The translations under genes and the position numbers were made by a program. Below, one piece after another: positions 22,833-42,668 of a stretch of 43,677 bases of DNA; the stretch's first letter is position 1; the number at the start of each line of letters is the position of its first letter. This stretch comes from an uncultured Actinomycetes bacterium (lineage in GTDB: Bacteria; Actinomycetota; Acidimicrobiia; Acidimicrobiales; Ilumatobacteraceae). The stretch is taken from NCBI GenBank assembly GCA_903872155.1, contig CAIQJP010000033.1, positions 1 to 43,677 on the forward strand. The letters run 5' to 3'. Under the pieces are notes generated by a model. The model had not been told where the DNA came from, did not search any database, and was given only the letters and a program-made list of their open reading frames with translations.

Positions 22833-22855
22833 GTTTCTGATACCGTGTCAGAAAC
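22833..22855. promoter_or_regulatory. Operator site A of the island-wide palindrome
   Basis: The core TCTGATACCGTGTCAGA (22836-22852) is a 17-bp near-perfect dyad with one mismatched pair, extended to 23 bp by GTT/AAC. It lies in the 107-base gap between two divergent SDR genes and fits the TetR-type operator seen again at sites B, C1-C3 and D. Confidence 0.82.
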
Positions 22856-22894
22856 TAGTCGGGATTGAGCAAAGACCGATAACCGTTGGGGGCG

Positions 22895-23791
22895 ATGGTG
22901 AACACAAAAAACTTAAAACGCCGCCCAGTCGCGCTGATCACGGGCGCTAGTCGCGGCATCGGCCGCGGAATTGCCCTCTCCCTCGCCCAGTCGGGATATG
23001 ACCTCGTGATTACTGGTCGCACCGTTACTGAAGGTTCGGCAATCAACCCCGCAACCGGCCGCAGTTTGGGCGGAAGCCTTGAGGAAACTGCTCAACAAGC
23101 GCGTGCGTACGGTTCATCAGTTGACATTGTTGTCGCCGATGTCTTAGACCTCAGCGATGTCGTCGCATCATTTCATCGGTGCCTCGAAATCAGTGACGGT
23201 CACATCGACCTTTTGGTGAATAACGCGATCTATGTCGGGCCGGGCAATGATGTCCGTTTCGCCGACACCGATCCTGATGACATTGTTCGCAGATCAAACG
23301 GCAATCTCATTGCACCTCTGTTGTTGACTCAGGCATTTTTGCAACATGCACTTGCAAGCCCGGCGAACCCCACAACTTCGTTACGCGCGACGATTTTGAA
23401 TATCACCAGCGATGCCGGCAAACGAACACCTGAGCGAATGGCTGGAAATGGCGGATGGTCTTTGATGTACGCAGCGACTAAGGCCGGATTTCATCGCATC
23501 GCCGACATGTTGGCCCACGAATACGGCCATGAAGGAATTCGATGCCTCAATATCAATCCGGGTTTGGTTGCCACTGAACGCGTGCTCGATTCTGGGGCGA
23601 ACCTTGAGTGGATCGCTCGCTCTGGCGTTGCGCCAGAGATTATTGGTCGAGCCGTCGTTCAACTATTAAATGACCCGCTCATCGGCAATGGGGCTTATGT
23701 GCACGCTCAAGAATATTTGCGCGAAGCACTTGGCGACCTTGAATATGAACGCTTACTCTCGATCTCAAGCATGAATGGACAACCGCTATGA
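22895..23791 (+). CDS. Short-chain dehydrogenase/reductase (SDR)
   Basis: A 298-residue SDR (ATG 22895; TTG 22886 adds three). NAD(P) motif TGASRGIGRGIAL near residue 17, NNAIY in place of NNAG, a catalytic Ser in ILNITSDAG, YAATKAGF with Tyr and Lys, and LNINPGLVATERV. A GSAINPATGRSLGGSLEET insert follows the second beta strand, as in several SDRs of mycobacterial degradation clusters. It probably acts on a hydroxy- or keto-acyl-CoA or a ring ketone. The first gene of a three-gene operon with the amidohydrolase and CoA-ligase genes, each overlapping by four bases; operator A lies upstream. Confidence 0.9.
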   Translation: MVNTKNLKRRPVALITGASRGIGRGIALSLAQSGYDLVITGRTVTEGSAINPATGRSLGGSLEETAQQARAYGSSVDIVVADVLDLSDVVASFHRCLEISDGHIDLLVNNAIYVGPGNDVRFADTDPDDIVRRSNGNLIAPLLLTQAFLQHALASPANPTTSLRATILNITSDAGKRTPERMAGNGGWSLMYAATKAGFHRIADMLAHEYGHEGIRCLNINPGLVATERVLDSGANLEWIARSGVAPEIIGRAVVQLLNDPLIGNGAYVHAQEYLREALGDLEYERLLSISSMNGQPL

Positions 23792-25017
23792 GCAACTACG
23801 AAACCAACACGTATGTCATTGGGGCAACCAATCAAGACATGTTGTTACCCGAACCAGAAATATCGCCGATCTACTACACCTTGATTTCGGTTGATGACCA
23901 CCTCGTCGAACCACCCAATATGTTTGACGGTCGCTTACCGAAAGCACTTCAGTCGCAAGCACCTCGGCTCATTGTGAATGATCGCGGCCATCAAGTGTGG
24001 TCATTCGACAACCAAATCTTTAGCCAAGTCGGAATGAATGCAGTTGTCGGACGCAAGCCCGAACTTCGCTCACTTGAACCAGCTCGATTTGAAGATATGC
24101 GTCGTGGATGTTGGGATATCGATGAACGCATCAAAGACATGGACCTCATTGGTTGCTGGGCATCACTTAACTTCCCATCACAAGTCGCTGGTTTCGCCGG
24201 TCGTATTTTTAGTGCGTGCAAAGACCCCGAGGTTGGTCACGCAACAATGCGCGCGTGGAACGATTGGCTATACGAAGAATGGTGGCAGAAATACCCTGAC
24301 CGCATCATTCCGTGTGGAATCACTTGGCTTGCTCCTGGACCCGATGGCACAGCCAAACTTGGAGCCGACGAGATTCGACGCAATGCCGAACGCGGATTCG
24401 TTTCGGTGACATTGCCCGAACGGCCACACAACATTGGTTTTCCTAGCTTGTTTAGTGGTTGGTGGGATCCGATCATCGAAGCCTGCGTCGAAACCGACAC
24501 CGTGATCTCGTTGCATGTTGGTTCGTCAGGAATGTACGCGATGCCCGAAGGCGCACCTTCGCTTCAACTTGGTGCAACATTGTTCGGTCAACTGTCGCTC
24601 ACTGCGTGCGCCGAATGGCTGTGGAGCGGATACGCCTACAAGTACCCCACTTTGAAAATTGCGATGAGTGAAGGTGGCATTGGTTGGGTTCCGATGTTGC
24701 TTGACCGTCTCGAAAATGTCGTTGATCGCAGTGGCTATGGAGCCGGCTGGGATATTCGTCCTGCCGATTTATTGCGCCGCAACTTTTGGTTCTGCACCAT
24801 TGACGATCCATCGACGATCGATCTTCATGACGTCATCGGCGATGACCACATCATGGTTGAAATCGATTACCCCCATGGCGACAGCACCTGGCCGAACAGT
24901 CAATCCATATTGCGAGATGCGTGGGGGCACTTGTCTCCACAACTCCTTCGTAAGTTCTGCTGCGAAAATGCCGCCGCGCTCTACCGTCATCCCCTGCCCG
25001 CACGCATCGTTCCATGA
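23788..25017 (+). CDS. Amidohydrolase family 2 (ACMSD-like) protein
   Basis: A 409-residue protein, ATGA-coupled to the SDR before and the ligase after. It starts with the family's metal motif in variant form: LISVDDHLVEPPNMF, where the classical HxH is DxH. The remaining ligands are expected from a His in ISLHVGSSG, from the SEGGIGW region and from EIDYPHGDSTWP. This is the form of many uncharacterised amidohydrolases in actinobacterial steroid and aromatic catabolic clusters; relatives hydrolyse or decarboxylate ring-derived acids. An ordinary peptidase or urease-like role is unlikely. It is cytoplasmic. The reaction is unknown. Confidence 0.87.
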   Translation: MSNYETNTYVIGATNQDMLLPEPEISPIYYTLISVDDHLVEPPNMFDGRLPKALQSQAPRLIVNDRGHQVWSFDNQIFSQVGMNAVVGRKPELRSLEPARFEDMRRGCWDIDERIKDMDLIGCWASLNFPSQVAGFAGRIFSACKDPEVGHATMRAWNDWLYEEWWQKYPDRIIPCGITWLAPGPDGTAKLGADEIRRNAERGFVSVTLPERPHNIGFPSLFSGWWDPIIEACVETDTVISLHVGSSGMYAMPEGAPSLQLGATLFGQLSLTACAEWLWSGYAYKYPTLKIAMSEGGIGWVPMLLDRLENVVDRSGYGAGWDIRPADLLRRNFWFCTIDDPSTIDLHDVIGDDHIMVEIDYPHGDSTWPNSQSILRDAWGHLSPQLLRKFCCENAAALYRHPLPARIVP

Positions 25018-26675
25018 CCACTGTTGCCTCACTGATTCGTGCCAGAAAAGGCGACCAGCATCCTGGATACGTTTTCGAAGGTCGCACCTACACCTGGGAC
25101 GAAGTTGTTTCTGAGTCAGCTGTTCGTGCCTCCATTTTGGACGAACTCATTTCTGGTGATCGCCCGCCACACATCGGAATTCTCTTGGAGAACACCCCGG
25201 ACTACCTCTTTTGGATTGGTGGTGCAGCTCTCGTTGGCGCCTGCGTTGTTGGAATCAACCCGACCCGTCGGGGAAGTGAATTAGAACGCGATATTCAGCA
25301 CACTGATTGTCAGATCATCGTGAGTGACCAGAGTGGCATGGCGCTAATTGACGGCTTACATACCGGAGTTGACAAGAACAAAGTCATCGACGTTGATTCC
25401 ACTCAACACCACGATCAACTTTTGCAACATCGCGACGCAACACTCCCAGCGCACGAACCTGACGAGAACAGCATTCTTTTCTTGCTATTCACATCTGGCT
25501 CAACAAGTGCACCTAAGGCCGTCGTCTGCACCAATCAACGAATGGCCACCGCCAGCGTGCGAGCCGGGCAAATCTACGGAGTGACAGCAGACGAAGTTTG
25601 CTATTGCCCAATGCCACTCTTTCATGGAAATGCATTGATGGCATGTTGGGGGCCAGCACTCGCCGTAGGAGCAACCCTGGTTCTTCGGCGCAAGTTTTCT
25701 GCGAGCAACTTCATGTCCGATATTCGCGCTCATCAATGCACGTATTTCACCTATGTCGGTCGCACGATCGCATACATCCTTGGTCAGCCCATTTCAGATG
25801 AGGATCGAAACAACACCTTGCGTCTCGGATTCGGGACAGAAGCAAGTGCCCTTGACCGCGAACGCTTTCTAGAACGATTTGGCTGTGATCTCGTTGAGGG
25901 TTACGGATCAAGCGAAAGCGTTGTCGCAATCATTCGCACTCCCGACACTCCGGCGAACGCACTCGGCAAAGAGCGAGCCGACATGGCTGGCCAAGTCTGC
26001 ATCGTTGATCCCGACACCAATCGTGAATCCCCGCGCGTTCAGTTTGACGAGTTTGGGGCAATCAGTAACCCCGAATGCATCGGTGAAATCGTCAGCTTGA
26101 GTGGCGGCACGTCATTTGAGGGCTACTACAACAATCAAGAAGCCTCAACCGAACGTGTCCGTAACGGCTGGTATTGGACCGGAGACCTGGGCTACCGAGA
26201 TGACGCTGGGTTCTTCTATTTCGGCGGACGCAGCGCCGATTGGCTACGCGTTGATAGTGAGAACTTTGCTGCTGGTCCCGTTGAAAACATCGTCTCGCGA
26301 TTCCCTGGAGTCGTAATGGCCGCTGTCTACCCCGTGCCCGACCCAACAACCGGCGACATGGTGATGGTGGCGATTGAGATGAATGAAACTGCAGAGTTTT
26401 CACCACACGAGTTTGACGAGTTTCTGTCGCAGCAGCGCGACCTTGGCACCAAATGGTCGCCACAAATTGTTCGAGTGATTGAGGCAATGCCACTGACTGC
26501 GAACAACAAAGTACATAAGCCACCGCTACGTGCGAGTAAATGGTTGACGCCAGACATGCACTATTGGCGATCAGAACGCAATCAGCCTTTGCGACTCATG
26601 AACGAATCTGACAAGCAAGAACTTGCGGCGCGTTTTGCAGCGAATGGCCGAACGCAGATTCTGACCGCGCTCTAA
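25014..26675 (+). CDS. Acyl-CoA synthetase (AMP-forming, FadD17-like)
   Basis: A 553-residue ANL-superfamily ligase. ATP P-loop TSGSTSAPK from Thr160, the A5 motif EGYGSSES, A7 WTGDLGYRD, the hinge region after GRSADW, and catalytic Lys499 in ANNKVHK. The INPTRRGSELERDIQHTDCQ block matches mycobacterial FadD17, a member of the cholesterol gene region. It would activate a carboxylic acid to its CoA thioester at the start of the pathway. It has a paralogue at the other end of the gene group (29068-30765) with the same block; the two probably handle different acids or pathway stages. It is the last gene of the operon starting at 22895. Confidence 0.9.
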   Translation: MTTVASLIRARKGDQHPGYVFEGRTYTWDEVVSESAVRASILDELISGDRPPHIGILLENTPDYLFWIGGAALVGACVVGINPTRRGSELERDIQHTDCQIIVSDQSGMALIDGLHTGVDKNKVIDVDSTQHHDQLLQHRDATLPAHEPDENSILFLLFTSGSTSAPKAVVCTNQRMATASVRAGQIYGVTADEVCYCPMPLFHGNALMACWGPALAVGATLVLRRKFSASNFMSDIRAHQCTYFTYVGRTIAYILGQPISDEDRNNTLRLGFGTEASALDRERFLERFGCDLVEGYGSSESVVAIIRTPDTPANALGKERADMAGQVCIVDPDTNRESPRVQFDEFGAISNPECIGEIVSLSGGTSFEGYYNNQEASTERVRNGWYWTGDLGYRDDAGFFYFGGRSADWLRVDSENFAAGPVENIVSRFPGVVMAAVYPVPDPTTGDMVMVAIEMNETAEFSPHEFDEFLSQQRDLGTKWSPQIVRVIEAMPLTANNKVHKPPLRASKWLTPDMHYWRSERNQPLRLMNESDKQELAARFAANGRTQILTAL

Positions 26676-26684: not shown

Positions 26685-27221
26685 TCAGTTATTTGCTTTC
26701 CAGGTTTGCCATGATTCAAGGCATTCGGGCAACTCTCCCCTGCCCGTTTGATTCAACGGCCAATTCGCATCATCAAGCCCGACTGGCGCGTTCGGCATGG
26801 TGTGTCCGTACCACAGCAAATGCTTGCGACGAGCAAACAACCAATGTCCATCAACGCACTTGTATGTGTCGTGATATTGAATTTGATGGATGATCCAATT
26901 TCCGTCGGCATCTTCAATTTCACCACGGCATGAAACAATTCCAGTTGCGCCGACTTGATCGGCTACATCAATCAAATGATTATTGACTTGCAGAATCACT
27001 CGACCTAGTGAATGCATCTGTCCATCAAAACTTTCTTTCAAAGCCTGCGTTCCCGAAGTTTCACGAGTCACCTTGATATCTGGGATAAACAACGCGGCAA
27101 GATTCTGCGTATCACGAGCACCGTAGAAAATTGCGTACCGACTTGCGAGTTGACGAATTTCCTCTGACGCAATCAGCCAAGCAAGCGGATCACTGTGCCG
27201 TAAGGCGTTCGAGTGACTCAT
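26685..27221 (-). CDS. SnoaL-like / NTF2-fold protein
   Basis: A 178-residue protein of the SnoaL_4/NTF2-like fold: an IRQLASRYAIFYGARDTQNL helix pair, LFIPDIKVTRE, then beta strands with NNHLIDVADQVGATGIVSCR, IIHQIQYHDTYKCVDGHWLF and KHLLWYGH. Relatives include ketosteroid isomerase-like enzymes, ring-hydroxylase beta subunits and the BaiE 7-alpha-dehydratase. Tyr and His (NNHL) occur at places reminiscent of BaiE, but the Asp after the first helix is Gly, so dehydratase function is uncertain. The ATG overlaps the SDR stop (ATGA), so both are made from the operator-B promoter. Confidence 0.83.
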   Translation of the reverse strand: MSHSNALRHSDPLAWLIASEEIRQLASRYAIFYGARDTQNLAALFIPDIKVTRETSGTQALKESFDGQMHSLGRVILQVNNHLIDVADQVGATGIVSCRGEIEDADGNWIIHQIQYHDTYKCVDGHWLFARRKHLLWYGHTMPNAPVGLDDANWPLNQTGRGELPECLESWQTWKANN

Positions 27222-28009
27222 GACTTAGGGCCTCCCGGAAGTGGATGCGGATGAGCGGTTGGTTGTAGTAACGCATCGGTGCCGCCATCAACAAACAAGA
27301 TTTGACCAACGACGTATGACGATTCATCCGATAACAAGAAGGCAACTGCAGATGCGATCTCTTCTGGCTTGCCCCAACGCCCACGCGGAATCGGAATCAT
27401 TTCTAGGGATTTTTTCACGTCTGGCATATCCAACAAAGGACGTGTCATCCCGGTATCAATGACACCAGGGGCAACTGCATTCAAGCGAATCCCCGATTTG
27501 ATCCAATCTGCAGATTGCATGCGCACCCAAAATGCAATCGCCAATTTTCCGGCCGGGTAAGCAATGTATTCATCTCTCACGTTGTGACGTGCGACGACTG
27601 CTTCTTCATCTTCATTGAGATATGCAAATGCTTCTTCCAATGACAACCCCGGAGTCATCGTCGTTGAGTTTGAAGAAATCATGACAACGGCCGGATTCGT
27701 TCCGCGTTCTAACGCTGGTCTCAATCCGTTCGTGATGGCTAAGGTCCCATAAAAGTTGACCCGCACTTTCAATTCATTAGGAGCCGGGTTGCTGACACCA
27801 GCACACGGAACAAGGCCATCCAAGACTCCCCCGCACAGTGCAGTGACTTCATCAACAATGCGTTGCCGATCTGCGGGCTTCGAAAGATCACCGCACACAT
27901 CGGCATCTCGAAGATCGACACCAATCACTCGATGGCCCTGAGCAACGAGTTTTGCCTTTGTTGCAGCACCAATTCCTGACGCCGTTCCTGTGACACAGAT
28001 TGTCCCCAT
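27218..28009 (-). CDS. 3-alpha-hydroxysteroid-dehydrogenase-like SDR
   Basis: A 263-residue SDR (ATG 28009 after GAGGGGC). The N-terminus has CVTGTASGIGAATKAKLVAQ and GVDLRDADVCGDLS, and CAGVSNP replaces NNAG. A ~25-residue helical insert (LSLEEAFAYLNEDEEAVVARH) precedes the active-site YPAGKLA, and the end is GQILFVDGGTDALLQPTAHP. These features, including the insert and the VDGG..A...PT end, match the layout of Comamonas 3-alpha-HSD/carbonyl reductase as I remember it. It would interconvert a ring hydroxyl and ketone using NAD(P). First gene of the two-gene operon with the SnoaL-like gene; divergent from the MDR gene with operator B between. Confidence 0.87.
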   Translation of the reverse strand: MGTICVTGTASGIGAATKAKLVAQGHRVIGVDLRDADVCGDLSKPADRQRIVDEVTALCGGVLDGLVPCAGVSNPAPNELKVRVNFYGTLAITNGLRPALERGTNPAVVMISSNSTTMTPGLSLEEAFAYLNEDEEAVVARHNVRDEYIAYPAGKLAIAFWVRMQSADWIKSGIRLNAVAPGVIDTGMTRPLLDMPDVKKSLEMIPIPRGRWGKPEEIASAVAFLLSDESSYVVGQILFVDGGTDALLQPTAHPHPLPGGPKS

Positions 28010-28035: not shown

Positions 28036-28052
28036 TCTGACAGTGTGTCAGA
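28036..28052. promoter_or_regulatory. Operator site B of the island-wide palindrome
   Basis: TCTGACAGTGTGTCAGA, 7-bp arms with a three-base centre, 17 bp in all. It lies in the 79-base divergent gap between the 3-alpha-HSD-like SDR gene and the MDR gene. TTT flanks it on the left as at site A. Confidence 0.82.
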
Positions 28053-28088: not shown

Positions 28089-29063
28089 ATGCGTTCCATC
28101 GTTTGCAATCAGTTTGCCCCCCTGTCCGAATTACAGATCGAGGAAAAGCCCGCCCCCGAACTCTTCCCCGGGTCTGTTCGTATTGCCGTCACTGCATGTG
28201 GCGTCAATTTCGTCGATGCACTGTTTGTCCAAGGTAAATACCAAATCAAACCGCCGACACCATTTGTTCCAGGAATGGAAGTTGTTGGTCGCGTGACAGA
28301 GGTTGCTCCAGACATCACCGATGTGGCACTCGGTTCGCGAGTATTCGCCAATGTTGGCCTCGGAGGCTTTAGCTCTGAGGCAGTCGTCTCGGCCAAGCGC
28401 ATCATGCAACTGCCTGACACTCTCTCTGATGGACAGGCCGCAACGTTCATGCAGAGCTACCTCACCGCGTGGTTTGCGCTTGTCGAACGTGCGCATGTTG
28501 AACGCGATAAGCACCTGTTGGTTTTAGGCGCGGGTAGCGGAGTTGGTCTTGGCGCGGTTGATGTCGGTCGAGCACTCGGACTTCGGGTCATCGCCGCTGC
28601 TTCAACTGAAGAAAAGCGCAATCTTGCTCTCGAACGCGGAGCCTTTGCAGTGATTGATTCAACACTGTCGGCAGACGAAGTGAAGGAAGAAGCCAAGCGT
28701 CTCTCTGGTGGCGGTATTGACTACTTGTACGACCCAGTAGGTGGAGACCTCGGAGAAACCTGTTTGCGCGCGCTCACCGACGACGGTCAATATCTGGTGA
28801 TTGGCTTTGTGGCTGGCATTCCAAAACTTCCGGCCAATCAAGTGCTCTTGCGCAATCGTCGAGTCACCGGTGTTGATTGGGGCGGTTGGGCCGGCAAGAA
28901 CCCTGGGCTCAATGATCGGATGCTGGCTGAAGTCATGGAATTGATTGCAGCTGGAGAACTCCGACCCGTTGAGCCTCAGACATACCCGCTTGAACAAGCT
29001 GCTCAAGCGTTACAAGATCTCGAAGATCGAAAAGTTGCGGGAAAAATTGCGTTGATTCCGTAG
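28089..29063 (+). CDS. Zinc-free medium-chain reductase (quinone oxidoreductase / enoyl reductase type)
   Basis: A 324-residue MDR of the NADPH:quinone oxidoreductase (QOR) group. The GroES-like half has GVNFVDALFVQGKYQ and PFVPGMEVVGRV; the Rossmann half has LLVLGAGSGVGLGAVDVGRA, GAFAVIDS, YDPVGGD and LVIGFVAG. The cysteines of zinc-dependent relatives are absent. Such enzymes reduce quinones, enones or enoyl-CoA double bonds with NADPH in the cytoplasm. Control by operator B puts it in the island's pathway. It converges on the second ligase gene with four bases between stops. Which double bond it reduces is unknown. Confidence 0.9.
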   Translation: MRSIVCNQFAPLSELQIEEKPAPELFPGSVRIAVTACGVNFVDALFVQGKYQIKPPTPFVPGMEVVGRVTEVAPDITDVALGSRVFANVGLGGFSSEAVVSAKRIMQLPDTLSDGQAATFMQSYLTAWFALVERAHVERDKHLLVLGAGSGVGLGAVDVGRALGLRVIAAASTEEKRNLALERGAFAVIDSTLSADEVKEEAKRLSGGGIDYLYDPVGGDLGETCLRALTDDGQYLVIGFVAGIPKLPANQVLLRNRRVTGVDWGGWAGKNPGLNDRMLAEVMELIAAGELRPVEPQTYPLEQAAQALQDLEDRKVAGKIALIP

Positions 29064-29067: not shown

Positions 29068-30765
29068 TCAATCCAGCAATGCGCCACGATTGTTGGCCGC
29101 AAACTTTGCACGGAGCTCAGTTGCTTCAACCCGAGTGAATTGTGAAAAAGCGATTTCCTTGGATGGACGCCACCACAATTGAACATCGTCATTGCGTTCA
29201 ACTTCATGCCAACGTCGAAGAACAAGTTCACGTTTGATCACCTTGTTTGACGGGGTCATCGGGAACTCTTCAACGATCTGAATAAAGCTAGGAATCCATT
29301 TCGGCCCAAGGTCTGGCTGTGCTCGCAAGAACTCGGCGAACTCGCCAATGTCGAATGTCGTACCAGGTTGAACTTGCAGTGCCGCCATCACTCGATCGCC
29401 CATGTCAAAATCTGGGATTCCGTAGACCGCCGCCAAGATGACATCGGGATGACGCATCAAGATTCTTTCGATTGGAGCACCAGCAAAATTCTCGCCATCA
29501 ACGCGCATCCAATCGGCACTTCGACCAGCGAAATAGAAGAAGCCATTCTCATCGCGGTAGGCCAAATCGCCCGTCCAATAAGCGCCATCACGAATACGTT
29601 CGTTATTGGCAGCCGCGTTATTCCAATAACCCTCAAACGTTCCGCCGCCACCGTTCACAATCTCGCCGGTGGCTTCCTCTGAGTTCATTAAGCGACCTTC
29701 AGTGTCAAAGATTGCGCGTGGACACTCTTGATTAGTCGCTGGATCACGAACAGTGATTGTGGCCTGTGCCGCAACACCGAGCGAACCAGTAGGCATATTG
29801 GGAACCCGCACAATTGAAGCACCCGTTTCGGTTTGCCCGTAACCATCTGTGAGTTTGCAGTCGAAGCGTTCGGCGAATCGCAACAAATCAATTTCGGAGC
29901 CCTCATTGCCGAAACCACGGCGCAATGGATTGTCTCGATCGTCTTCGTGTTCGGGAGTTGCCAAGATGTACGTCAACGGCTTACCGACATAATTGAAATA
30001 CGTGGCACCGAACTTACGCACATCGTTGAGAAACTCGCTGGCTGAGAATTTACGGCGCAACGCGATCGTTGATCCGTAAACCAAACTTGGAGCCCAAGCA
30101 GTGAATAACGCATTTGAATGAAACAGTGGCATGCAAATGTACGTCGTATCTTCTGGCGTCAGTGCAATAATCATGTTCATTGACTGAGCCACAAAATTGA
30201 GTCGCTGGTGGCTCGTAATCACTGCCTTGGGCGCACCGCTCGTGCCTGAAGTGAAGAGTAACAAAAACGTGTCAGTCGGATTTACCGGACATTCCTGTGC
30301 AGTGGGCAACGAAGCGCCGATGTAACCCGCCAGTGCTTGCGCGTAATCGTCGGATTCAACAACCATGACGCCACCATCAGCGACACCGAGATCAAGCCCC
30401 TCAAGCAGTTCAACTTGGCTTGATTCAGTCACAACAATTTGACACGAGGTATGAGAGATATCACGAGCAAGTTCGGCACCACGTCGTGTGGGATTGATGC
30501 CAACAATCACCGATCCAGTGACGGCGGCAACCCCCAACCACATGGTGAACTCTGGAGTGTTTTCCAGCAATACTCCAATGTGCGGAGATGAACCCTCTGG
30601 TCGACTTCGCAAAATATCTAGCCACATTGCCGAACGTGACGCGACCCCCGAACACCATTCGCGATACGTCAATGACTCGTCATCAAAGAGAATTGCGACA
30701 TGGTCGTCGGTACTGCGAGCACGGACGTGATCGGCGAAGGTCAGAGCCGGTTTTTCAGAGCTCAC
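29068..30765 (-). CDS. Acyl-CoA synthetase (AMP-forming, FadD17-like), paralogue
   Basis: I chose the GTG at 30765, which overlaps the end of the upstream flavoprotein gene by 11 bases; ATG 30795 would add ten residues of poor similarity to the paralogue. The product is 565 residues: P-loop LLFTSGTSGAPK, DGYGQTETGA, YWTGDLAYRDENG, GRSADWMRVDGENFAG, and the catalytic Lys in TPSNKVIK. The NPTRRGAELARDISHTSCQ block is shared with the ligase at 25014 and with mycobacterial FadD17. It activates a carboxylic acid substrate to acyl-CoA. It is the last gene of the four-gene minus-strand operon beginning with the MFS-LivF fusion. Confidence 0.9.
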   Translation of the reverse strand: MSSEKPALTFADHVRARSTDDHVAILFDDESLTYREWCSGVASRSAMWLDILRSRPEGSSPHIGVLLENTPEFTMWLGVAAVTGSVIVGINPTRRGAELARDISHTSCQIVVTESSQVELLEGLDLGVADGGVMVVESDDYAQALAGYIGASLPTAQECPVNPTDTFLLLFTSGTSGAPKAVITSHQRLNFVAQSMNMIIALTPEDTTYICMPLFHSNALFTAWAPSLVYGSTIALRRKFSASEFLNDVRKFGATYFNYVGKPLTYILATPEHEDDRDNPLRRGFGNEGSEIDLLRFAERFDCKLTDGYGQTETGASIVRVPNMPTGSLGVAAQATITVRDPATNQECPRAIFDTEGRLMNSEEATGEIVNGGGGTFEGYWNNAAANNERIRDGAYWTGDLAYRDENGFFYFAGRSADWMRVDGENFAGAPIERILMRHPDVILAAVYGIPDFDMGDRVMAALQVQPGTTFDIGEFAEFLRAQPDLGPKWIPSFIQIVEEFPMTPSNKVIKRELVLRRWHEVERNDDVQLWWRPSKEIAFSQFTRVEATELRAKFAANNRGALLD

Positions 30766-32872: not shown

Positions 32873-32899
32873 CAATCGATCTTTCGCTGACTGCTGGTT

Positions 32900-35716
32900 C
32901 TATGTATTGCTTCGTTGAATAGCCCGCTCATCGGTTCCGAGATAACTCGCGATGACTGCAGGATTATTTCGTATGGCCGACGGAGTGCCTTCAGCGATGA
33001 CATGACCTGCCTCAAGGCAATAAATGCGATCAGAGATTGACATCACCATGGGCATGTCATGTTCAATGATCAAGATAGACGCACCAAGTTCTTCTTTGAT
33101 CATACGAATGAGTGGTCCGAAGGCTTCGGTTTCACGTTGCGCAACACCTGCGGTTGGCTCGTCAAGCAACATCAACTTTGAATCCAAGGCAATCAATGAC
33201 CCGAGTTCGACAATGCGACGAGTTCCTGTTGATAGTTCGCCCATCAACGAGTCGGCATAGCGACCCAATCCCAAGTACGAAATGATTTCGTCGGCTTCGC
33301 GACGCTTACGACCTTCATGTTGCGGAGAAGGTGGCAACGCAAAAATTGATGGAATCAAGATTGAACGTTGGCGTGATTCGAGGGCGACCATCAAAGTTTC
33401 GCGAACTGTCAGCGAGCTAAATAGCCGTGCATTTTGAAAGGCGCGACCCTGACCCAATCGAGCTCGTTTATACGCGGCGATTTTTGAAACGTCTTGACCG
33501 AAAAGCTCAATGATTCCCGATGACGGAACAAATCCAGAGACCGCATTAACGATCGTTGTTTTACCGGCTCCATTGGTTCCAATAAGGCCAACGACTTCAC
33601 CACTTCGCACTTCAAGCGAGACGTCATCAATGATCGTGCGACCGCCCAAAGTAACAAAGAGACTCTTCGTCACAAGCGGTGAGGCAGCCTCGGTCATCTG
33701 GCGACCCGTTCCAAGCGAGGCAACCGCTGCCCCTTGTTGTCGCACTGGTGGTGTCCAATTTGATCGACGAGCGATCCAGTTCAACAAATTGTCACGACCG
33801 GCATGAACAATAGAAATCAATCCACTCGGGAAATACAGAAGAACGATCAACATTCCGAAGCCACTTGCAAATAGTTCGACTTGCTTCGTGCCATCAAAGA
33901 AAAGCGGAACAGCAATGATCAAAAGTGTTCCCAGTACGGCTCCGGTGATTGAACCGATACCCCCGACAACAGCGACCGAAACAATGCGTAACGATTCATC
34001 AAAGTCGAAAAGCAATCCGTCAACTTTGAATTGAGCATTACGCGCGACGAGCGGCAAGAGTCCGCCAGCCAAAGCTGCAAGTCCACCTGATACCGCAAAG
34101 GCCAAGAGTTTGGCCCGATTTGGAGCGACCGTGTAGGCCGATGATGCGGTTTCATTGTCACGTGTTGCAATGATTGAACGCCCAATTCCAGTGCGACGAA
34201 TCCTCCACACCAAAACAATCGCCAAAACTGCCATCAACAAGACGAAGTAATACACGCCATCAAAGTTCTTGCCCTTAACCGTCCAGAAAATCAGACGGAA
34301 GCCCTTATTACGATCAACATTGAGTTGAGCACTGCCACCTCCACCCGGCGCAAATTTCTCACCGACGATGAACCATGAGCGAATCGCTAACCCAAACCCC
34401 AGTGTGACGACTGCAAGGTATAAACCCTTTACCCGTAAAGCAGGAATGCCGACAATGATCGCCGCGAGGACACCCCAAGTAATGCCAATGGGCAGCGCCA
34501 CTAAATACGGCAAGTCATTGGCGTAGTAGATCGTGAAGTACGAACCCAAGGCAACGAAACCAAATTGACCAAGTGAAAGTTGTCCACCCCATCCAGTCAC
34601 GACCGTGACCGATAGCGCAATGATCAAATACACCGGTATTGAAGAAAACTTCAACATGTCGCTGGCTTTATCGACTTGGCTCGGAAGGATGAGTGCTAGT
34701 CCGGCAATCAGCGCGAAACCCGAAAATGTCAATCCTCGATACAACGGATGCTTTGTGAGTTCAACCCGAGCAGCTCGAACTTTTGAAGTGAGTTGCCAGG
34801 TCTCATCTTTCATTGACGCTGAACGTCCTACCGTAAAGAGAACGACAATGATGACAACGAATAGCACTGCAATATTTGAGCCAGCTGGTAAGTCTCCGCT
34901 TAACGACCACGTAATCAAGAACCGATCAACGACACCGGCCAAGAGTCCACCGACAAGCGTCCAGGTAAACGACTTCATTCGTCCAACCATTGCTGCGACG
35001 AGTGACAGCAAAAGCATTTTGGGACCAAGCGCGTTTTGCACAGATGCGATCGAACCGCTTTGCAATGGAGCAATCAGCAACGCGCTCAACGCAGCAAGCA
35101 GTCCGGCTAACGCCCACACTTTGGTGGAGACGCTTCGCACCCCAATTCCGGCAAGACGAGCCGCAGGAAAGTTGTCAGCGGTGGCACGAACATTCATACC
35201 GAACGCGCTGCGATGAAATAGCCAACCCAAAAAGAGCATCAGTGCTGGCACAAATAGCAGAACTGTCAATTGGGGTCCCGTGACATTGACTCCTGCGACT
35301 TTCCAACTTCCGCTGATCAACACTGGAAAAGAAACGTTCGTGGCTTGTTCGTCGGGAATCGGCAAACGCAGTTGCAATAACTGAATGACTTGAGTGAGAC
35401 CAAGAGTTGCCACAAACAACAAAAGTCTTGGTTGAGTAAACAAACGTCGCAGCACTAACTCGGCAGCAACACCAAGCACGACGCCGCAAATCAATGCGAT
35501 GGGCAATGACAAACCATAAGCAATGTTGTAGCGAATTTGAAGGAGCGCCATGATGTAGCCGCCAAACGCTCCGATTTGTCCGTGCGCAAAGTTAATGACA
35601 CCAGTTGCTCGATAAATCAACAACAATCCGAAAGCCACGAGCGAATAGACAAGGCCTTGAATGAGTCCGTCAAACAAAATGTCGTTGGAGTAAGTCAAAG
35701 CGATTAATGCGTTCAT
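32900..35716 (-). CDS. LivH-LivM-LivG triple fusion: ABC importer permeases plus ATPase
   Basis: A single 938-residue protein joins three subunits that are usually separate. Residues 1-~290 are LivH-like (YRATGVINFAHGQIGAFGGY). Residues ~330-655 are LivM-like (GWGGQLSLGQFGFVALGSY; TRDNETASSAYTVAPNRAKL). Residues ~680-938 are the LivG-type ATPase with Walker A GTNGAGKTT (Lys719), signature LSTGTRRIVELG and Walker B LMLLDEPTAGV. The linker before the ATPase has an internal ATG (residue 674) without a Shine-Dalgarno sequence. The membrane part forms the pore for a branched-chain-amino-acid-type importer; in catabolic clusters these carry aromatic acids, amides or steroids. The start overlaps the MFS-LivF stop (ATGA), and the binding-protein gene is divergent. 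Confidence 0.92.
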   Translation of the reverse strand: MNALIALTYSNDILFDGLIQGLVYSLVAFGLLLIYRATGVINFAHGQIGAFGGYIMALLQIRYNIAYGLSLPIALICGVVLGVAAELVLRRLFTQPRLLLFVATLGLTQVIQLLQLRLPIPDEQATNVSFPVLISGSWKVAGVNVTGPQLTVLLFVPALMLFLGWLFHRSAFGMNVRATADNFPAARLAGIGVRSVSTKVWALAGLLAALSALLIAPLQSGSIASVQNALGPKMLLLSLVAAMVGRMKSFTWTLVGGLLAGVVDRFLITWSLSGDLPAGSNIAVLFVVIIVVLFTVGRSASMKDETWQLTSKVRAARVELTKHPLYRGLTFSGFALIAGLALILPSQVDKASDMLKFSSIPVYLIIALSVTVVTGWGGQLSLGQFGFVALGSYFTIYYANDLPYLVALPIGITWGVLAAIIVGIPALRVKGLYLAVVTLGFGLAIRSWFIVGEKFAPGGGGSAQLNVDRNKGFRLIFWTVKGKNFDGVYYFVLLMAVLAIVLVWRIRRTGIGRSIIATRDNETASSAYTVAPNRAKLLAFAVSGGLAALAGGLLPLVARNAQFKVDGLLFDFDESLRIVSVAVVGGIGSITGAVLGTLLIIAVPLFFDGTKQVELFASGFGMLIVLLYFPSGLISIVHAGRDNLLNWIARRSNWTPPVRQQGAAVASLGTGRQMTEAASPLVTKSLFVTLGGRTIIDDVSLEVRSGEVVGLIGTNGAGKTTIVNAVSGFVPSSGIIELFGQDVSKIAAYKRARLGQGRAFQNARLFSSLTVRETLMVALESRQRSILIPSIFALPPSPQHEGRKRREADEIISYLGLGRYADSLMGELSTGTRRIVELGSLIALDSKLMLLDEPTAGVAQRETEAFGPLIRMIKEELGASILIIEHDMPMVMSISDRIYCLEAGHVIAEGTPSAIRNNPAVIASYLGTDERAIQRSNT

Positions 35717-37917
35717 GCGCCAGCCCCTGACAAGAAGACGGCTCGCAACAGATCATCACGTTCAAGGAGCTCTTGCGCTGGTCCCTCAAACTTCACTTGA
35801 CCACGTTCCATAAACACTGCTCGGTCGGCAATTGAAAGAGCCACATTCACCGATTGTTCAACAATGACCATGGTGACTCCTTGCTCTTTGAGCTTCTCCA
35901 CAATCTTCAACAGATCTTGAACGACCACTGGGGCCAATCCAAGCGAAAGTTCGTCAATGCACAACAGTTCAGGATCAAGCATCACCGCTTTGGCTAACGC
36001 CAACATTTGCTGTTGACCGCCCGACAGTGATCCGGCCCGCTGATCTCTTCGCTGCCATAACATGTCAAAGGTTTCGTGGACTTGCGCCAATTTCTCTTTG
36101 CGTTTTCCGTGGTCGGCGATTTGACGGCTCCAGACGAGAAGGTTTTCTTCAACAGTCATCGAACTGAAGACTGCTTCGCCACCTGGAACTAAAACCAATC
36201 CCATTGACGCTCGGTATTGCGGCTCAACCAAGGTGATTGTGCGACCATTCATACGCACGACTCCCCGATCGGGCATCACCAGACCAGAGATCGCTTTCAA
36301 GATCGTTGACTTGCCAGCACCGTTGGTTCCGAGCAATGCAAGTACTTCGCCTTGACGAACATCGAAACCGACATCAAAGAGAACCTGAAGGTTTCCGTAG
36401 CTGACATCGACATTGCGAACCTGCAAAACCGGAATATTGCCAGGATCATTTTGCAAACGCAGCAATTCGGCTTGTTGCTCTTTCAACTCGCCAATCGTGA
36501 GCGCAATATCGCGCTTCATAAATCGACTGCCGTAAATAATGAGAAGTCCGCCAATCAGTGCAGCTGGTGGCACGACTGCAGTTAACGCCGTACGTTCGCC
36601 ATGCGCATCAGATAATCCACCAGCGAGCAAGCCGCCGAAGAAGCCGCCCATCAAAAAGATGTACACGCCAACCATGGCAAATGCTTGCGAACGCATTTGG
36701 TACGGAACGATGGCCGAAATAGCCGGACCCATCTGAGTAAATGCTGCACCCTGAAAGGCATTACCGATCGTGACAAACGCAATCATCACAACAGCACTAT
36801 GAAAGCGCAGTCCGACAGTCACAAAAACTCCGTAGAACAAAATGCACGTGCCCATCATTCGCAAGGCCGAAGGTGGATTGTTGCGGAACAACTTTTCACC
36901 GATTCGTCCAGCGAGTGGAATACCGATCAGAGCACCTGACCATGTAATTGCGCCAACCCATCCACGCGTGAAAGCGCTGTAGTTATAGGTGTTTTTCAAC
37001 AGCAAGTTGAATGCTCCTGGAACTGCAATCAGAGCAAAACCGAGAACGCCGATGCCGACCACTAAGAAATAGAAGGTACGCACTTTCTTCAATCGTTGAA
37101 AAGCCGCCGACAACAACACCGGGGGTTCAGCTTCAGCTTGAACAACGCTCTTGCCAAGAACTGCCTCTTGCTCTTGACGACCGCGCGTTGGTTCTTTCAA
37201 GGTGAATGACCACAAAATAGTCAGTCCTGCTGGGACGAGTAGCGCAAAGAAAACAACTCGCCAATCACCGGCATCATTACCTGCGGCAACCACTATTGCT
37301 CCAGCAAACAAAGGTCCGAGCACTTGGCCAAGTGGGCGACCAAGCGCTTCAATGGCAAAAATTCGCGTGCGCACTGCCATCGGATATTGATCGGCGACAA
37401 GAGACGGGCCGATGGGCACACGAGCCGATGCACCAAAGCCCGAGCCAGCGCGTGCCAATCCCATTTGGAAGGTATTGACGACCGACCCAGTGATTGCGAC
37501 GAATGCGAGCCATAAGGCCGATGCCGCCGACATCACTCGTACACGACGACGACGATCGGCCAACCAGGCAAATGGAAGAGTTGCCAAAACCAATACCACG
37601 CCACCAAAACTCTGCAAGCCGAGCAGAACAGTGTCTGATACTCCAAGAGTTGCCTGAATATCTGGTCCAAGAACCTGCATCGCGACTCGGTCAAATTCTT
37701 CGAAAACTGTAAACAGCAGCAAAACCGTCGCCACGCTGAATCCGCCAACACGCAGGCCGTTGCGCAACTTCATCGACTCTTGAGGGACCGCTTGGTCATC
37801 ACCGAAGTCGTCCACTTGGGCATCCCGATCCCGGCGATTTTGTTCATCAACCACGATGGACGATGCCAGTGCCGCAGCCGAAGGTACGGCGACTTGTTTC
37901 CCTTCAGATTCCTGCAT
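35713..37917 (-). CDS. MFS transporter fused to LivF-type ABC ATPase
   Basis: A 734-residue fusion. Residues 1-~50 are a charged, probably disordered tail. Residues ~55-470 are a complete major facilitator with about twelve hydrophobic segments, motif A LADRRRRVRVM and the second-half repeat near GRIGEKLFRNN. After a helical IGELKEQQAELLRLQ linker, residues ~500-734 are a LivF-type ATPase with Walker A GTNGAGKST (Lys536), signature SLSGGQQQMLALAK and Walker B LLCIDELSLGLAP. In Liv systems LivF pairs with LivG, which here is the tail of the next gene's product, so the MFS would be tethered to the ABC importer. GGGGGGA precedes the ATG, and operators C1-C3 lie just upstream. No characterised example is known to me. 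Confidence 0.92.
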   Translation of the reverse strand: MQESEGKQVAVPSAAALASSIVVDEQNRRDRDAQVDDFGDDQAVPQESMKLRNGLRVGGFSVATVLLLFTVFEEFDRVAMQVLGPDIQATLGVSDTVLLGLQSFGGVVLVLATLPFAWLADRRRRVRVMSAASALWLAFVAITGSVVNTFQMGLARAGSGFGASARVPIGPSLVADQYPMAVRTRIFAIEALGRPLGQVLGPLFAGAIVVAAGNDAGDWRVVFFALLVPAGLTILWSFTLKEPTRGRQEQEAVLGKSVVQAEAEPPVLLSAAFQRLKKVRTFYFLVVGIGVLGFALIAVPGAFNLLLKNTYNYSAFTRGWVGAITWSGALIGIPLAGRIGEKLFRNNPPSALRMMGTCILFYGVFVTVGLRFHSAVVMIAFVTIGNAFQGAAFTQMGPAISAIVPYQMRSQAFAMVGVYIFLMGGFFGGLLAGGLSDAHGERTALTAVVPPAALIGGLLIIYGSRFMKRDIALTIGELKEQQAELLRLQNDPGNIPVLQVRNVDVSYGNLQVLFDVGFDVRQGEVLALLGTNGAGKSTILKAISGLVMPDRGVVRMNGRTITLVEPQYRASMGLVLVPGGEAVFSSMTVEENLLVWSRQIADHGKRKEKLAQVHETFDMLWQRRDQRAGSLSGGQQQMLALAKAVMLDPELLCIDELSLGLAPVVVQDLLKIVEKLKEQGVTMVIVEQSVNVALSIADRAVFMERGQVKFEGPAQELLERDDLLRAVFLSGAGA

Positions 37918-37965: not shown

Positions 37966-37982
37966 TCTGACGGCGAATCAGA
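37966..37982. promoter_or_regulatory. Operator site C1 (weaker copy)
   Basis: TCTGACGGCGAATCAGA keeps the outer TCTGA/TCAGA half-sites of the family but not the inner pairs. Its centre is at 37974, 49 bases before the MFS-LivF start codon, and 21 bp from the centre of C2. Confidence 0.72.
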
Positions 37983-37986
37983 AAAA

Positions 37987-38003
37987 TCTGACGGTCCGTC
38001 AGA
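37987..38003. promoter_or_regulatory. Operator site C2 (perfect palindrome)
   Basis: TCTGACGGTCCGTCAGA is a perfect 8+1+8 dyad, centre 37995, the middle of three tandem sites between the divergent transporter operon and binding-protein gene. Confidence 0.85.
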
Positions 38004-38004
38004 A

Positions 38005-38027
38005 GTTTCTGACGGACCGTCAGAAAC
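38005..38027. promoter_or_regulatory. Operator site C3 (perfect 23-bp palindrome)
   Basis: Core TCTGACGGACCGTCAGA at 38008-38024, extended by GTT/AAC on both sides to a perfect 23-bp dyad as at site A. Centre 38016, again 21 bp from C2, so all three sites face the same side of the helix. Confidence 0.87.
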
Positions 38028-38105
38028 TAGGTATTTTTCTGCTAAGTTGCCCATGCGGCTGGCTCAGTGGTCAACCGACTTCACAACATCCGAGGGGGAT
38101 ATCAC

Positions 38106-39572
38106 ATGAAGAAATCACGTATTGCGCTCGCGTTCGTCGCTGGCGCTTCTCTCATCTTCGCCGCTTGTGGCGGCGATGACGGAGGCTCAGCAACAACTGA
38201 AGCTCCCACCGCCAGTGAGGCTCCGGCCTCAAGCGAGGCTCCTGTGACTGAGGCACCAGCCGAAGAACTCACAGCCTCTGACGTCGGCATCACCGCCGAC
38301 ACCATCAAGATTGGCGTCGCTGTTTCCGACCTTGAAGCCATTCGCGCCATGGGAATCTCGATTCCCGAAACCTTGACGACTGACCATCTCTTCAATCGCT
38401 GGAACGTTTTCTTCGAAAAGTGGAACGCCGAAGGCGGAATTAACGGACGTATGGTCGAAGCAGTTCGCCTTGTTTGGAACCCGCTTGATCCGAGCACCTT
38501 TGACACACTTTGTTCAGCAGCAACTGTTGACAATGAATTGTTCATGGTGATCAACGGAACCGGATTGTCATCAACCGCCCGCAAGTGCTTGCTCGATGCC
38601 GGCACGCCAATCATGTACGGCGACGTCATGGGCCAGGCAGAACTCGACACTGGTCTCGCCATTTCTCTCGCAGCACCGTCAGAGACCGTTGCTGAAGCTG
38701 GCGTCACTGCTTGGATGAATTCAACTGATGCAGCACCAGGTTCAGTTGTTGGCATCTTGTCAAACAACACCGTTTCATTATCAGCTGCCGGAAAAGCTGC
38801 TGAAGCTGCTTTGACGGCTGGTGGATTCACTCCGAAGTTGATTGAGATCAACTCGACGCAGGGCGACGCAGCCGCAACCAACGAAGAGGGCGCAGCAGCA
38901 GTTGCTGTGTTCGAAGCCGAAGGCGCTGTTCAGACTTTCGTTGCAACACCATTCACCGAAACCCAAGGTTTCTGGGGTGCTGCTGCAGCTGCTGGTTTGA
39001 AGTTCTCGTTGCTTGATACTTCATCATCAGGTTGTTCAGCATTCGGTTTGAGCCGTGCACCAGCCGCTGCTGTAGGTAGCGATTGCGTCACCGCATACGA
39101 CCATGCAACTGACGGAACATCAATTCGTCCCGACACCGAGTTTGAAGCATCTTGCCGTGCGTTCTACGACGAAAGCTTCTCGGACTACTACGGTGGCCCG
39201 TCGAACCCCGGCGTTCCTGCTGGAAACGTCTACACCGACGTCAATGGCAAGACCTTGATTTCTGACTACACGCCGCAGGAATGTGCTTTGGCGAACATCA
39301 TGAATCTTGGATTGACTGCAGCGGGCGTTAACCCGACCCGTCAGTCATACATTGACGCAGTGTTGAACCTTGGCGAAGTGCCGTTGGCACTTGCTGGTGG
39401 CGGAACTGGCAAGTTTGCACCAGGTAAGCCGTATGCAGCCAATGCTTTGCACACCGTGCGAATCACTGCAGCCGCACTTGACACCGCACCAGATGCGAAC
39501 GGTTTGTACAACGGTTGTGCAGCTCCGGTCAACTGTGGTGTTGTTGTCAGCGATTGGGCACCAATTAGCTGA
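38106..39572 (+). CDS. LivK-type solute-binding lipoprotein of ABC importer
   Basis: ATG 38106 follows GAGGGGGAT; the product is 488 residues. A signal peptide ends in lipobox FAAC with Cys21, followed by a Thr/Ala/Glu/Pro linker to ~residue 55. The periplasmic-binding fold type I (Peripla_BP_6) follows: ADTIKIGVAVSDLEAIRAMG, FEKWNAEGGINGRMVEAV, VVGILSNNTVSLSAAGK, and several cysteines (DTLCSA, ARKCLL, SSGCSAF, SDCVTA, ASCRAF) suggesting disulfides. It captures the substrate outside the membrane for the fused Liv permease. Longer than LivK (~370 residues), as is usual for actinobacterial members in aromatic and steroid clusters. Divergent from the MFS-LivF gene across operators C1-C3, and followed by a strong terminator. 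Confidence 0.9.
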   Translation: MKKSRIALAFVAGASLIFAACGGDDGGSATTEAPTASEAPASSEAPVTEAPAEELTASDVGITADTIKIGVAVSDLEAIRAMGISIPETLTTDHLFNRWNVFFEKWNAEGGINGRMVEAVRLVWNPLDPSTFDTLCSAATVDNELFMVINGTGLSSTARKCLLDAGTPIMYGDVMGQAELDTGLAISLAAPSETVAEAGVTAWMNSTDAAPGSVVGILSNNTVSLSAAGKAAEAALTAGGFTPKLIEINSTQGDAAATNEEGAAAVAVFEAEGAVQTFVATPFTETQGFWGAAAAAGLKFSLLDTSSSGCSAFGLSRAPAAAVGSDCVTAYDHATDGTSIRPDTEFEASCRAFYDESFSDYYGGPSNPGVPAGNVYTDVNGKTLISDYTPQECALANIMNLGLTAAGVNPTRQSYIDAVLNLGEVPLALAGGGTGKFAPGKPYAANALHTVRITAAALDTAPDANGLYNGCAAPVNCGVVVSDWAPIS

Positions 39573-40833: not shown

Positions 40834-42555
40834 TTAGCGGGCGAGGACGGTGAAGGTGTCTTTGCCGGACTTCAACACAGTCCCTGGCACTGCCCCATTG
40901 GCCATGCCGTTCTCCACAATCGTCACGCCATTCACCAGCACACGCTTCACACCAAACGATCCCGCTGTCAACCTTGACGAGTTACCCGGAAGGTCGGTCA
41001 CCAACATCGCTTCTTCAGATCCGATTTCATCTGGATTGAAAACCACGACATCGGCACAGGCGCCTTCACGCAGTTCGCCTCGGTCAACCAAGCCGAACAA
41101 TTTCGCTGGTTGCGAGGTCATCATCTTCACTGCGAATTCAACGGGCACCAACTTGCGACCACGAATACAGTCGGCAAGCCAACGAGTCGGGTAGGGAGCA
41201 CCACACATCCGGTCTAAGTGAGCACCGGCATCGGAGCCACCAATCATTGCTCGTCCGTCTTGCCACAATTCGGCACGCATTCTCCATGATTCAGCATCAT
41301 CGTCTTGCGGGGTCGGCCACAGAATCGTTTTCAATTCATCGGCGATCACGATGTCGAGCAATGTTCCGAACGAGCTCATTCCTCGCTCATTCGCGATATC
41401 GCGAACGACGCGACCCTTCAAACCTTCGTTTTCTGCCGAATACGTATCACCGATGACGTAATCGCCCCAATCGGCCAAACGACGGAACACGCCTGCGGCT
41501 TGCGACAAACTATTTTCAAGCATGCGCACTCGCGTATCGGGATCTTGCAGTCGCTGGATTCGTTCAGCCACCGGCACGCCCAAAATCTGTTGCCAACCTG
41601 GCAGCAACCACAAGCCACAAAAGCTCGAAAAGCTCATATTCATTGGTACCTGCACCGGCATCGTCAGGGCAACAACTTTGCCACCCAATTCAATTGAGCG
41701 ATCGTAAGCAGAAATCTGTCGCGGCACGCGATCGGATTCACGCGAGTCAACCGTCAAAACGTTCCAGTTCATCGGGCGGTTTGCCGCGGCACTCATAAGT
41801 CCGAGCAATTCAATTTCATCGTCAGCGAAACGATCTAAGCAACCGGGAACAATTCCTTCAAGAGTTGTTCCCTCGTGCAAACCAACTTCTTCACACAGCG
41901 CAATCAATTCATCGTGAGTTGCCCAACGACTTGCAACAGGCTCACCATCACCGTCGCTGTGTGATGTGCTGTTAGTAAACGAAAAACCTAAGGCACCCGA
42001 CTGAATTGATTTCGCAAGTTCAGTTCGCATTCCAGCAATATGTTCAATTGATGCTTCGGCGCCGACAGCAGCTGGCCCCATCACATAACGACGAATCGCA
42101 CAGTGGCCCACCAAAAATCCGGCGTTGACGGAAATGTTTCCTTCAAGGCGACCCAGGTATTCGGCAAACGTTTCCCAGGACCAGTCGGTTCCATTTTCGA
42201 GTGCAGCCAATGGCATACCTTCAACCTTGGACATCATCTTGCGTAGGTAGTCGGCGTCACCAGGAATCAGCGGAGCCAACGTGAATCCACAGTTGCCGCC
42301 AATAATCGTCGTCACTCCATGAACACTTGACGGACTTGCTGTTGGGTCCCATAAAAGCTGAGCGTCGTAATGGGTGTGTGGATCAACGAATCCGGGCGTC
42401 ACAATGCACCCCGTTGCATCAATCACCTCGGCTGCGTCTTGGTCAACAACTCCGATCGCGATGATGCGCCCGTCTTTAATACCGATATCGGCGACACGAG
42501 ACGGCGAACCCGTTCCATCGATCACTGTTCCGCCACGAATCACTTTGTCGAGCAT
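40834..42555 (-). CDS. N-acyl-D-amino-acid deacylase-like amidohydrolase
   Basis: ATG 42555 (TTG 42561 alternative); 573 residues. The amidohydrolase/D-aminoacylase layout is clear: MLDKVIRGGTVIDGTG start, the metal motif VDPHTHYDAQLLWDP, GGNCGF with the bridging Cys, GHCAIRRYVMG, and GGSDAGAHLDRM with the catalytic Asp. The C-terminal beta-sandwich ends in VKRVLVNGVTIVENG. Characterised relatives remove acyl groups from N-acyl-D-amino acids; actinobacterial catabolic clusters hold many uncharacterised homologues of this size. It is cytoplasmic and zinc-dependent. It is divergent from the aldehyde dehydrogenase gene with operator D between, so it belongs to the island's regulon. Confidence 0.88.
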   Translation of the reverse strand: MLDKVIRGGTVIDGTGSPSRVADIGIKDGRIIAIGVVDQDAAEVIDATGCIVTPGFVDPHTHYDAQLLWDPTASPSSVHGVTTIIGGNCGFTLAPLIPGDADYLRKMMSKVEGMPLAALENGTDWSWETFAEYLGRLEGNISVNAGFLVGHCAIRRYVMGPAAVGAEASIEHIAGMRTELAKSIQSGALGFSFTNSTSHSDGDGEPVASRWATHDELIALCEEVGLHEGTTLEGIVPGCLDRFADDEIELLGLMSAAANRPMNWNVLTVDSRESDRVPRQISAYDRSIELGGKVVALTMPVQVPMNMSFSSFCGLWLLPGWQQILGVPVAERIQRLQDPDTRVRMLENSLSQAAGVFRRLADWGDYVIGDTYSAENEGLKGRVVRDIANERGMSSFGTLLDIVIADELKTILWPTPQDDDAESWRMRAELWQDGRAMIGGSDAGAHLDRMCGAPYPTRWLADCIRGRKLVPVEFAVKMMTSQPAKLFGLVDRGELREGACADVVVFNPDEIGSEEAMLVTDLPGNSSRLTAGSFGVKRVLVNGVTIVENGMANGAVPGTVLKSGKDTFTVLAR

Positions 42556-42647
42556 GTCCAACCATCTTTCTGCAAGAACTATCCAGGCGCCCCGTAGCGG
42601 TCGGTTTCAACCCCCACAAAAGCAGTTATCAAACTCCGAAGAAATGG

Positions 42648-42668
42648 AATCTGACGGTGCGTCAGATT
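42648..42668. promoter_or_regulatory. Operator site D of the island-wide palindrome
   Basis: Core TCTGACGGTGCGTCAGA (42650-42666) with AA/TT flanks giving a 21-bp dyad. It lies 53 bases before the aldehyde dehydrogenase start and 93 before the deacylase-like start, between the two divergent genes. Confidence 0.82.

Follow-up and report, generated by a model that had tools for sequence, protein, structure and literature searches.

A palindromic operator at the catabolic promoters of an uncultured Ilumatobacteraceae bacterium and its probable TetR-family repressor

The window analyzed here is the whole 43,677-nucleotide contig CAIQJP010000033.1 (contig C33 in our labels) of the assembly GCA_903872155.1, which represents an uncultured member of the Ilumatobacteraceae (Acidimicrobiia). 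Its right half contains a palindrome, TCTGAyrnnnyrTCAGA, that we propose to be the operator of a catabolic regulon. A pattern scan finds this motif without mismatch at 22836, 28036, 37987, 38008, and 42650; a sixth copy in the preliminary description of this DNA, at 37966, keeps both arms intact and departs from the written consensus at one inner base. The copy TCTGATACCGTGTCAGA (22836..22852) separates two divergent SDR genes, TCTGACAGTGTGTCAGA (28036..28052) has an SDR gene on one side and a zinc-type dehydrogenase gene on the other, and TCTGACGGTGCGTCAGA (42650..42666) is located between amidohydrolase and aldehyde dehydrogenase genes. The remaining copies form a tandem array of three, consisting of the imperfect TCTGACGGCGAATCAGA (37966..37982), TCTGACGGTCCGTCAGA (37987..38003), which is 21 bp from each neighboring copy, and TCTGACGGACCGTCAGA (38008..38024). 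The last two are perfect dyads, as first described; no strand is assigned to any of the copies. According to the calls of a simple gene caller, which provides all gene coordinates given here, the right half of the window has four divergent gaps (22829/22886, 28009/28089, 37917/38067, and 42561/42721). The motif is present in all four and in none of the left-half divergent gaps (for example, 5186/5263, 6611/6728, and 11307/11391). A further near-palindrome at 23621 has two mismatches and is intragenic. When three mismatches are allowed, the window has 21 matches versus 16.2 expected, no more than chance, indicating that the strict arms carry the signal.

At 22.8 kb, one SDR family oxidoreductase gene is on the minus strand (21894..22829; PF00106/PF13561), and the other, on the plus strand (22886..23791; PF00106), heads a three-gene operon, as judged by spacing, with an amidohydrolase (Amidohydro_2; 23788..25017, plus; PF04909) and an AMP-binding acyl-CoA ligase (25014..26675, plus; PF00501/PF13193). 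The 28.0-kb gap divides a minus-strand SDR family oxidoreductase gene (27218..28009; PF13561), followed by a gene for a SnoaL-like protein (26685..27221, minus; PF13577), from the zinc-type alcohol dehydrogenase/quinone reductase gene (28089..29063, plus; PF00107/PF08240). Beside the triple array, a minus-strand transporter operon begins with a gene for an MFS domain fused to an ABC ATPase (35713..37917; PF07690 and PF00005). It continues with a branched-chain-amino-acid-type ABC transporter in fused LivH-LivM-LivG order (two permease domains and an ATPase; 32900..35716, minus; PF02653 twice, PF00005, and PF12399) and a flavoprotein of the Old Yellow Enzyme/2,4-dienoyl-CoA reductase type (30755..32875, minus; PF00724 and PF07992), which the NCBIfam BaiCD and mycofactocin OYE models match below their cut-offs. 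The operon ends with an AMP-binding acyl-CoA ligase (29068..30795, minus; PF00501). The two-protein transporter (32900-37917), with its LIV-type permeases, ATPases, and MFS domain, is an unusual composite, and homologues of the MFS-ABC protein (E up to 1e-150) are found in seven of the 38 genera examined. The divergent target on the other side of the array is a 501-amino-acid protein (38067..39572, plus) that has no Pfam or NCBIfam match and has orthologues of 70% to 93% identity in the genus loci examined. The 42.6-kb gap is flanked by an amidohydrolase gene (Amidohydro_3; 40834..42561, minus; PF07969) and an aldehyde dehydrogenase gene (42721..43677, plus; PF00171). The latter is cut by the contig end and continues on contig C141 of the same genome, which overlaps the end of the window (42906-43677) over 772 bases at 97.8% identity. 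Thus the assembly is broken and unjoined inside this gene, and the island continues on C141 with two more sites. An AbiEi-antitoxin-like gene also lies within the island (39717-40748, plus); it is kept in the related genome G017 and was not found at that place in G013.

The source genome (G000; 2.81 Mb in 165 contigs, 97% complete) contains the strict pattern 15 times versus none for a reversed control, and 100 versus 30 times when two mismatches are allowed. Three more copies with perfect arms and one inner mismatch are present in gaps (C20:8956, C33:37966, and C141:3935), giving 18 copies in 16 gaps on nine contigs. The gaps are divergent in 14 of the 16 cases, that on C8 by virtue of a small open reading frame; those at C20:20047 and C141:298 are not. 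By the gene calls all 15 exact places are in gaps, with uncertain start codons at four, and the motif thus does not occur at equal density within genes. The longest open reading frame overlaps the site at C20:12626, C20:20047, C42, and C141:3935, where the matched family domain begins beyond the site; at C141:3935, two relatives also have reading frames that run uninterrupted through the site. Of the ten one-mismatch places, seven (C18, C46, C86, C87, C91, C93:27938, and C99:65972) are inside called genes and were taken as chance matches. The preliminary description had envisaged a single regulon on one 21-kb island; the shared operator stands, whereas the confinement does not, given the spread over nine contigs and the continuation of the island into C141.

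The genes beside or behind these sites are of catabolic types. They include AMP-binding acyl-CoA ligases, acyl-CoA dehydrogenases, enoyl-CoA hydratases, SDRs, luciferase-like monooxygenases, amidohydrolases, TauD-type dioxygenases, P450s, an aldehyde dehydrogenase, a RibD_C protein, an acyltransferase, and a lipid-transfer thiolase with a ChsH2-like partner. The second gene behind C20:12626 is a ligase that scores above the FadD3-family NCBIfam cut-off. The lipid-transfer thiolase is also above its NCBIfam cut-off, and the best model for an acyl-CoA dehydrogenase, IpdE2, matches below its cut-off. In two distant site-bearing genomes of the phylum (G354 and G352), ten genes next to or near sites include a ligase, two acyl-CoA dehydrogenases, a Thiolase_C_1 protein, a ChsH2-like protein, an SDR, and a luciferase-like protein, together with a glycerol-3-phosphate dehydrogenase, a subtilase, and one protein without a match.

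The sites are conserved in orthologous promoters. We compared the gaps at 22.8, 28.0, and 42.6 kb in relatives whose contigs were fetched, a selection rather than a full survey. At 22.8 kb the site is kept in G017 (L302), where both flanking genes have matches, and in G007 (L303), where one of them has a match next to the site; at 28.0 kb in G007 and G017 (both flanks) and G008 (one flank, at a contig end); and at 42.6 kb in G013 and G017. A site is also present beside an amidohydrolase homologue in a genome of another family (G038, L059). All 18 genus genomes in which DNA upstream of the transporter is present have one to three sites in this gap, with a 21-bp distance between copies where there are several. 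Outside the genus, two of the eight transporter copies with upstream DNA have a site (G040 and G051), suggesting that distant homologues are mostly outside the regulon. The symmetric information of the operator spans about 19 bp, WTCTGACRSNSYGTCAGAW, instead of the 21 to 23 bp first proposed. Among 185 distinct sites, which are not independent of each other, the dyad partners at positions 7 and 11 match in 72.4%, compared with at most 63.2% in 500 shuffles; the inner partners 6/12 and 8/10 show no excess over the shuffles.

The preliminary description had predicted a TetR-type regulator encoded outside the window, and P0001, a 210-amino-acid TetR protein on contig C20 (C20:3841-4473, minus strand), matches this prediction. 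Its gene closes an operon that, as judged by spacing, has five genes (dehydrogenase, ligase, two SDRs, and TetR), and the operator copy at C20:8956 heads this operon. Among ten genus loci beyond the source genome, the site is located 4.5 kb upstream of the TetR gene in eight; the remaining two contigs stop short of that point. The genome has 24 TetR_N matches, only one of which is a P0001-type protein. Another TetR gene, on C3, lies beside a site among the two-mismatch places listed, and was set aside as a rival candidate since that site is far off the consensus. P0001 has an N-terminal TetR helix-turn-helix (PF00440, 30.8 bits; cut-off 24) and a ligand/dimerization domain (PF19352, TetR_C_38, 64.0 bits; cut-off 23.9). 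Its AlphaFold model has nine helices (mean pLDDT 92.5) with TetR folds as the best matches, closest to EthR (Z 19.0, rmsd 2.8, 185 residues aligned). Lower matches include the acyl-CoA binders FasR, DesT, and FadR (Z 14.8-16.4), some solved entries of which contain acyl-CoA, along with many other TetR proteins. Homologues of P0001 at 84% to 95% identity include lake records labelled acIV and Ilumatobacteraceae, and the source organism is probably a freshwater member of its family.

The co-occurrence of P0001 homologues with the sites extends well beyond the source genome. Within the genus (24 genomes), 228 sites were found versus no control matches, and 20 genomes have a P0001 homologue (in G014 a fragment at a contig edge). 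The four genomes without one have one site (G001), none (G010), one (G019), and five (G021, 60% complete). In a set of 297 genomes of the order, each at least 85% complete, a homologue is present in 68 of the 70 genomes with at least two sites versus 26 of the 227 others (Fisher p = 1.5e-42, with genomes treated as independent); counted by genus, the figures are 42/43 versus 17/131. In a phylum-wide set of 296 genomes, where the reversed control matches once each in two genomes, a homologue is found in 21 of the 26 genomes with a site versus 4 of the 270 others. Outside the order this becomes 14/18 versus 4/251, with homologues of 31% to 45% identity. In g1, g36, g39, g43, and g73, where only some genomes of the genus have the TetR gene, the sites track it. 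Genus g84 breaks this rule, as G107 has sites without a TetR match and G295 a TetR match without sites. TetR genes without sites occur in all three genomes of g44 and in two of the four of g89, and in g215, a genus with genomes of 6-10 Mb that is probably Streptomyces as judged by named TetR records, eight of the 11 TetR-bearing genomes, all of them examined, have sites.

The arms occur at one exact spacing near the TetR homologues. We collected TetR loci both on named contigs (80) and in genomes of the order (60); after removal of seven duplicated places, 133 distinct loci remain. In these, TCTGAC/GTCAGA half-sites are separated by 5 bp 60 times (55 distinct places) and never by 0-4 or 6-13 bp. 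The exact site is present in 27 of the 60 order-level loci, 18 of which come from genomes without any strict site, and in 23 of the 80 named loci. Five of the latter 23 belong to the 17 contigs labelled proteobacterial, myxococcal, acidobacterial, or bacterium. Among 24 Streptomyces-type loci, one has the exact site and six have a close form such as TCTGATGTACCGTCAGA, which in S. coeruleorubidus lies between acyl-CoA dehydrogenase and thiolase genes. The named loci were picked by the peptide TFYQYFxD, so the sequence of their recognition helix is no evidence. Four records deposited as Bifidobacterium breve bins (L194, L195, L217, and L222) carry an Acidimicrobiia-type TetR gene, 47% to 95% identical to P0001, and are probably mislabelled.

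We propose, with a probability of roughly 86%, that a single TetR-family repressor, P0001, has the palindrome as its operator and controls through it both catabolic genes and its own operon; a CoA thioester would release it. A P0001 dimer would bind WTCTGACRSNSYGTCAGAW over the promoters of genes that take up organic acids, activate them with CoA, and oxidize them. The sites, their promoter positions and conservation, the exact spacer, the autoregulatory layout, and the co-occurrence with P0001 homologues are observed, whereas we infer that P0001 binds directly, that it represses instead of activating, and what kind of ligand it has. By repressing the operon that ends in its own gene, P0001 would limit its own synthesis. 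Once a substrate is imported and activated, a CoA-thioester intermediate would fill the pocket and release the repressor, such that all promoters open together. The transporter promoter has as many as three sites at intervals of 21 bp, or two helical turns, on the same face, which would place dimers side by side for the tightest shut-off. P0001 perhaps senses an acyl-CoA, a link suggested mainly by the target genes and in addition by the similarity of the modelled fold.

Several observations weigh against this proposal. Fold likeness at Z ~15 extends to numerous TetR proteins that are not acyl-CoA binders, among them the quorum-sensing SmcR and HapR, which are found among the same matches. The Fisher tests ignore shared ancestry, and even a control TetR, an unrelated protein from C99 of the same genome, is somewhat associated with the sites (17/70 versus 16/227, p = 2.7e-4), so part of the association is general. 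Among TetR-bearing genomes of the order, 20 of 94 lack a strict site, while G040 (three sites) and G107 (five sites) lack a P0001-type match at the cut-offs used. The recognition helix does not distinguish homologues in genomes with sites from those in genomes without, as 16 of the 18 site-free ones fetched keep SPATFYQYF. In three of these 18 site-free genomes (G080, G150, and G237; loci L140, L144, and L147), near-copies of the form TCTGAC-N5-GTCAGC are present 60-113 bp upstream of the TetR match; they may represent a variant operator of the same regulator family.

The alternative that survives best, at about one chance in ten, is that P0001 does bind these sites, but as an activator or as a regulator that both activates and represses. 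In favor of this view, a consensus scan of 37850-38150, the only gap scanned, revealed no sigma-70-type promoter. However, a pair of opposite promoters often shares a single site, at a distance of no more than ~125 bp from the matched gene starts, an arrangement that fits repression, as does the autoregulatory layout. Most studied TetR proteins are repressors. Slightly less probable is that the operator is genuine but bound by another transcription factor, with P0001 a passenger gene gained and lost along with the catabolic genes. Since the P0001 gene is within a target operon, its presence would follow that of the regulon even if it were a mere passenger. Within the genus, the MFS-ABC transporter gene tracks the sites too, being absent from G001, G010, and G019 and present in 19 of the 21 other genomes, and the two site-bearing genomes without a P0001 match likewise favor this view. 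Against it, homologues of 31% to 45% identity outside the order still co-occur with the same 17-mer. Some contigs labelled Deltaproteobacteria, Myxococcota, and Pseudomonadales, labels of metagenome bins that may be wrong, also have exact sites in the vicinity of homologues, and the unrelated TetR of the same genome co-occurs with the sites far less in the one control run. In addition, the 2-3-kb loci around all 24 TetR_N matches have correctly spaced arms only once (L022), inside an open reading frame. It is highly improbable that these palindromes act as RNA stem-loops or terminators or belong to a dispersed repeat: two terminator-like structures are called in the triple array versus 0.4 expected, but in 14 of the 16 gaps the flanking genes diverge, so that transcripts are not expected to end there, the arms are fixed in sequence and not merely paired, the flanks carry little information, and copies are kept in orthologous promoters.

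Repression by P0001 would resemble the KstR and KstR2 systems, in which TetR proteins repress the steroid catabolism genes of mycobacteria and rhodococci and which share with P0001 a palindrome in many divergent gaps, target genes for CoA-thioester metabolism, and autoregulation. Operons with a FadD3-family ligase, a lipid-transfer thiolase, an IpdE2-like dehydrogenase (below cut-off), and a ChsH2-like partner strengthen this likeness. However, the KstR operator appears to have a different sequence, and the fold of P0001 is nearer to EthR than to KstR2 (Z 14.7). The best match to KshA_C (PF19298), the single marker of steroid ring degradation examined, has 21.8 bits in G000 (cut-off 23.3). Within the genus no match exceeds 24.4 bits, a marginal score, and three partial matches are above 23.3 (G004, G010, and G011); these profile scores weaken a purely steroid role and speak against classical steroid ring degradation in this genus. 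Other genera include six genomes that have sites and match KshA_C strongly (G031, G038, G041, G054, G055, and G058), and strong matches are also found in the site-free G030, G033, G035, and G050, so steroid use is possible there. FasR, DesT, and FadR have in common with P0001 the fold and a link to acyl-CoA metabolism, yet they are only 13% to 18% identical over the fold alignment, and the proposed targets of P0001 go beyond fatty-acid genes. EthR of Mycobacterium tuberculosis is the closest solved fold and profile match, at ~19% identity; it controls mainly one neighboring gene, in contrast to the genome-wide set proposed for P0001. One site listed for the TetR regulator SAV151 of Streptomyces avermitilis starts with TCTGACA and ends with TGTCAGA, and has 10 bases between its 6-bp half-sites versus 5 here, a comparison by site alone (PMC10933834). 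Among the results listed in searches of open-licence PubMed Central papers, we found no description of the operator or the regulator.

This is a new regulon within a known type of system, with an unusual breadth of operator conservation. There are about even odds that one repressor-operator pair, its operator almost unchanged while the protein diverged to ~35% identity, is a portable master switch for non-fatty-acid CoA-thioester catabolism that spreads with its target genes in Acidimicrobiia, Streptomyces, and some Myxococcota and Proteobacteria. To our knowledge, Acidimicrobiia are mostly uncultured, and little has been learned of their gene regulation. The target operons can now be assigned to one physiological program, and the inducer can be searched for with one protein and one DNA probe. 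The regulator, the operator, and the list of targets provide a direct handle on the organic compounds that Acidimicrobiia degrade.

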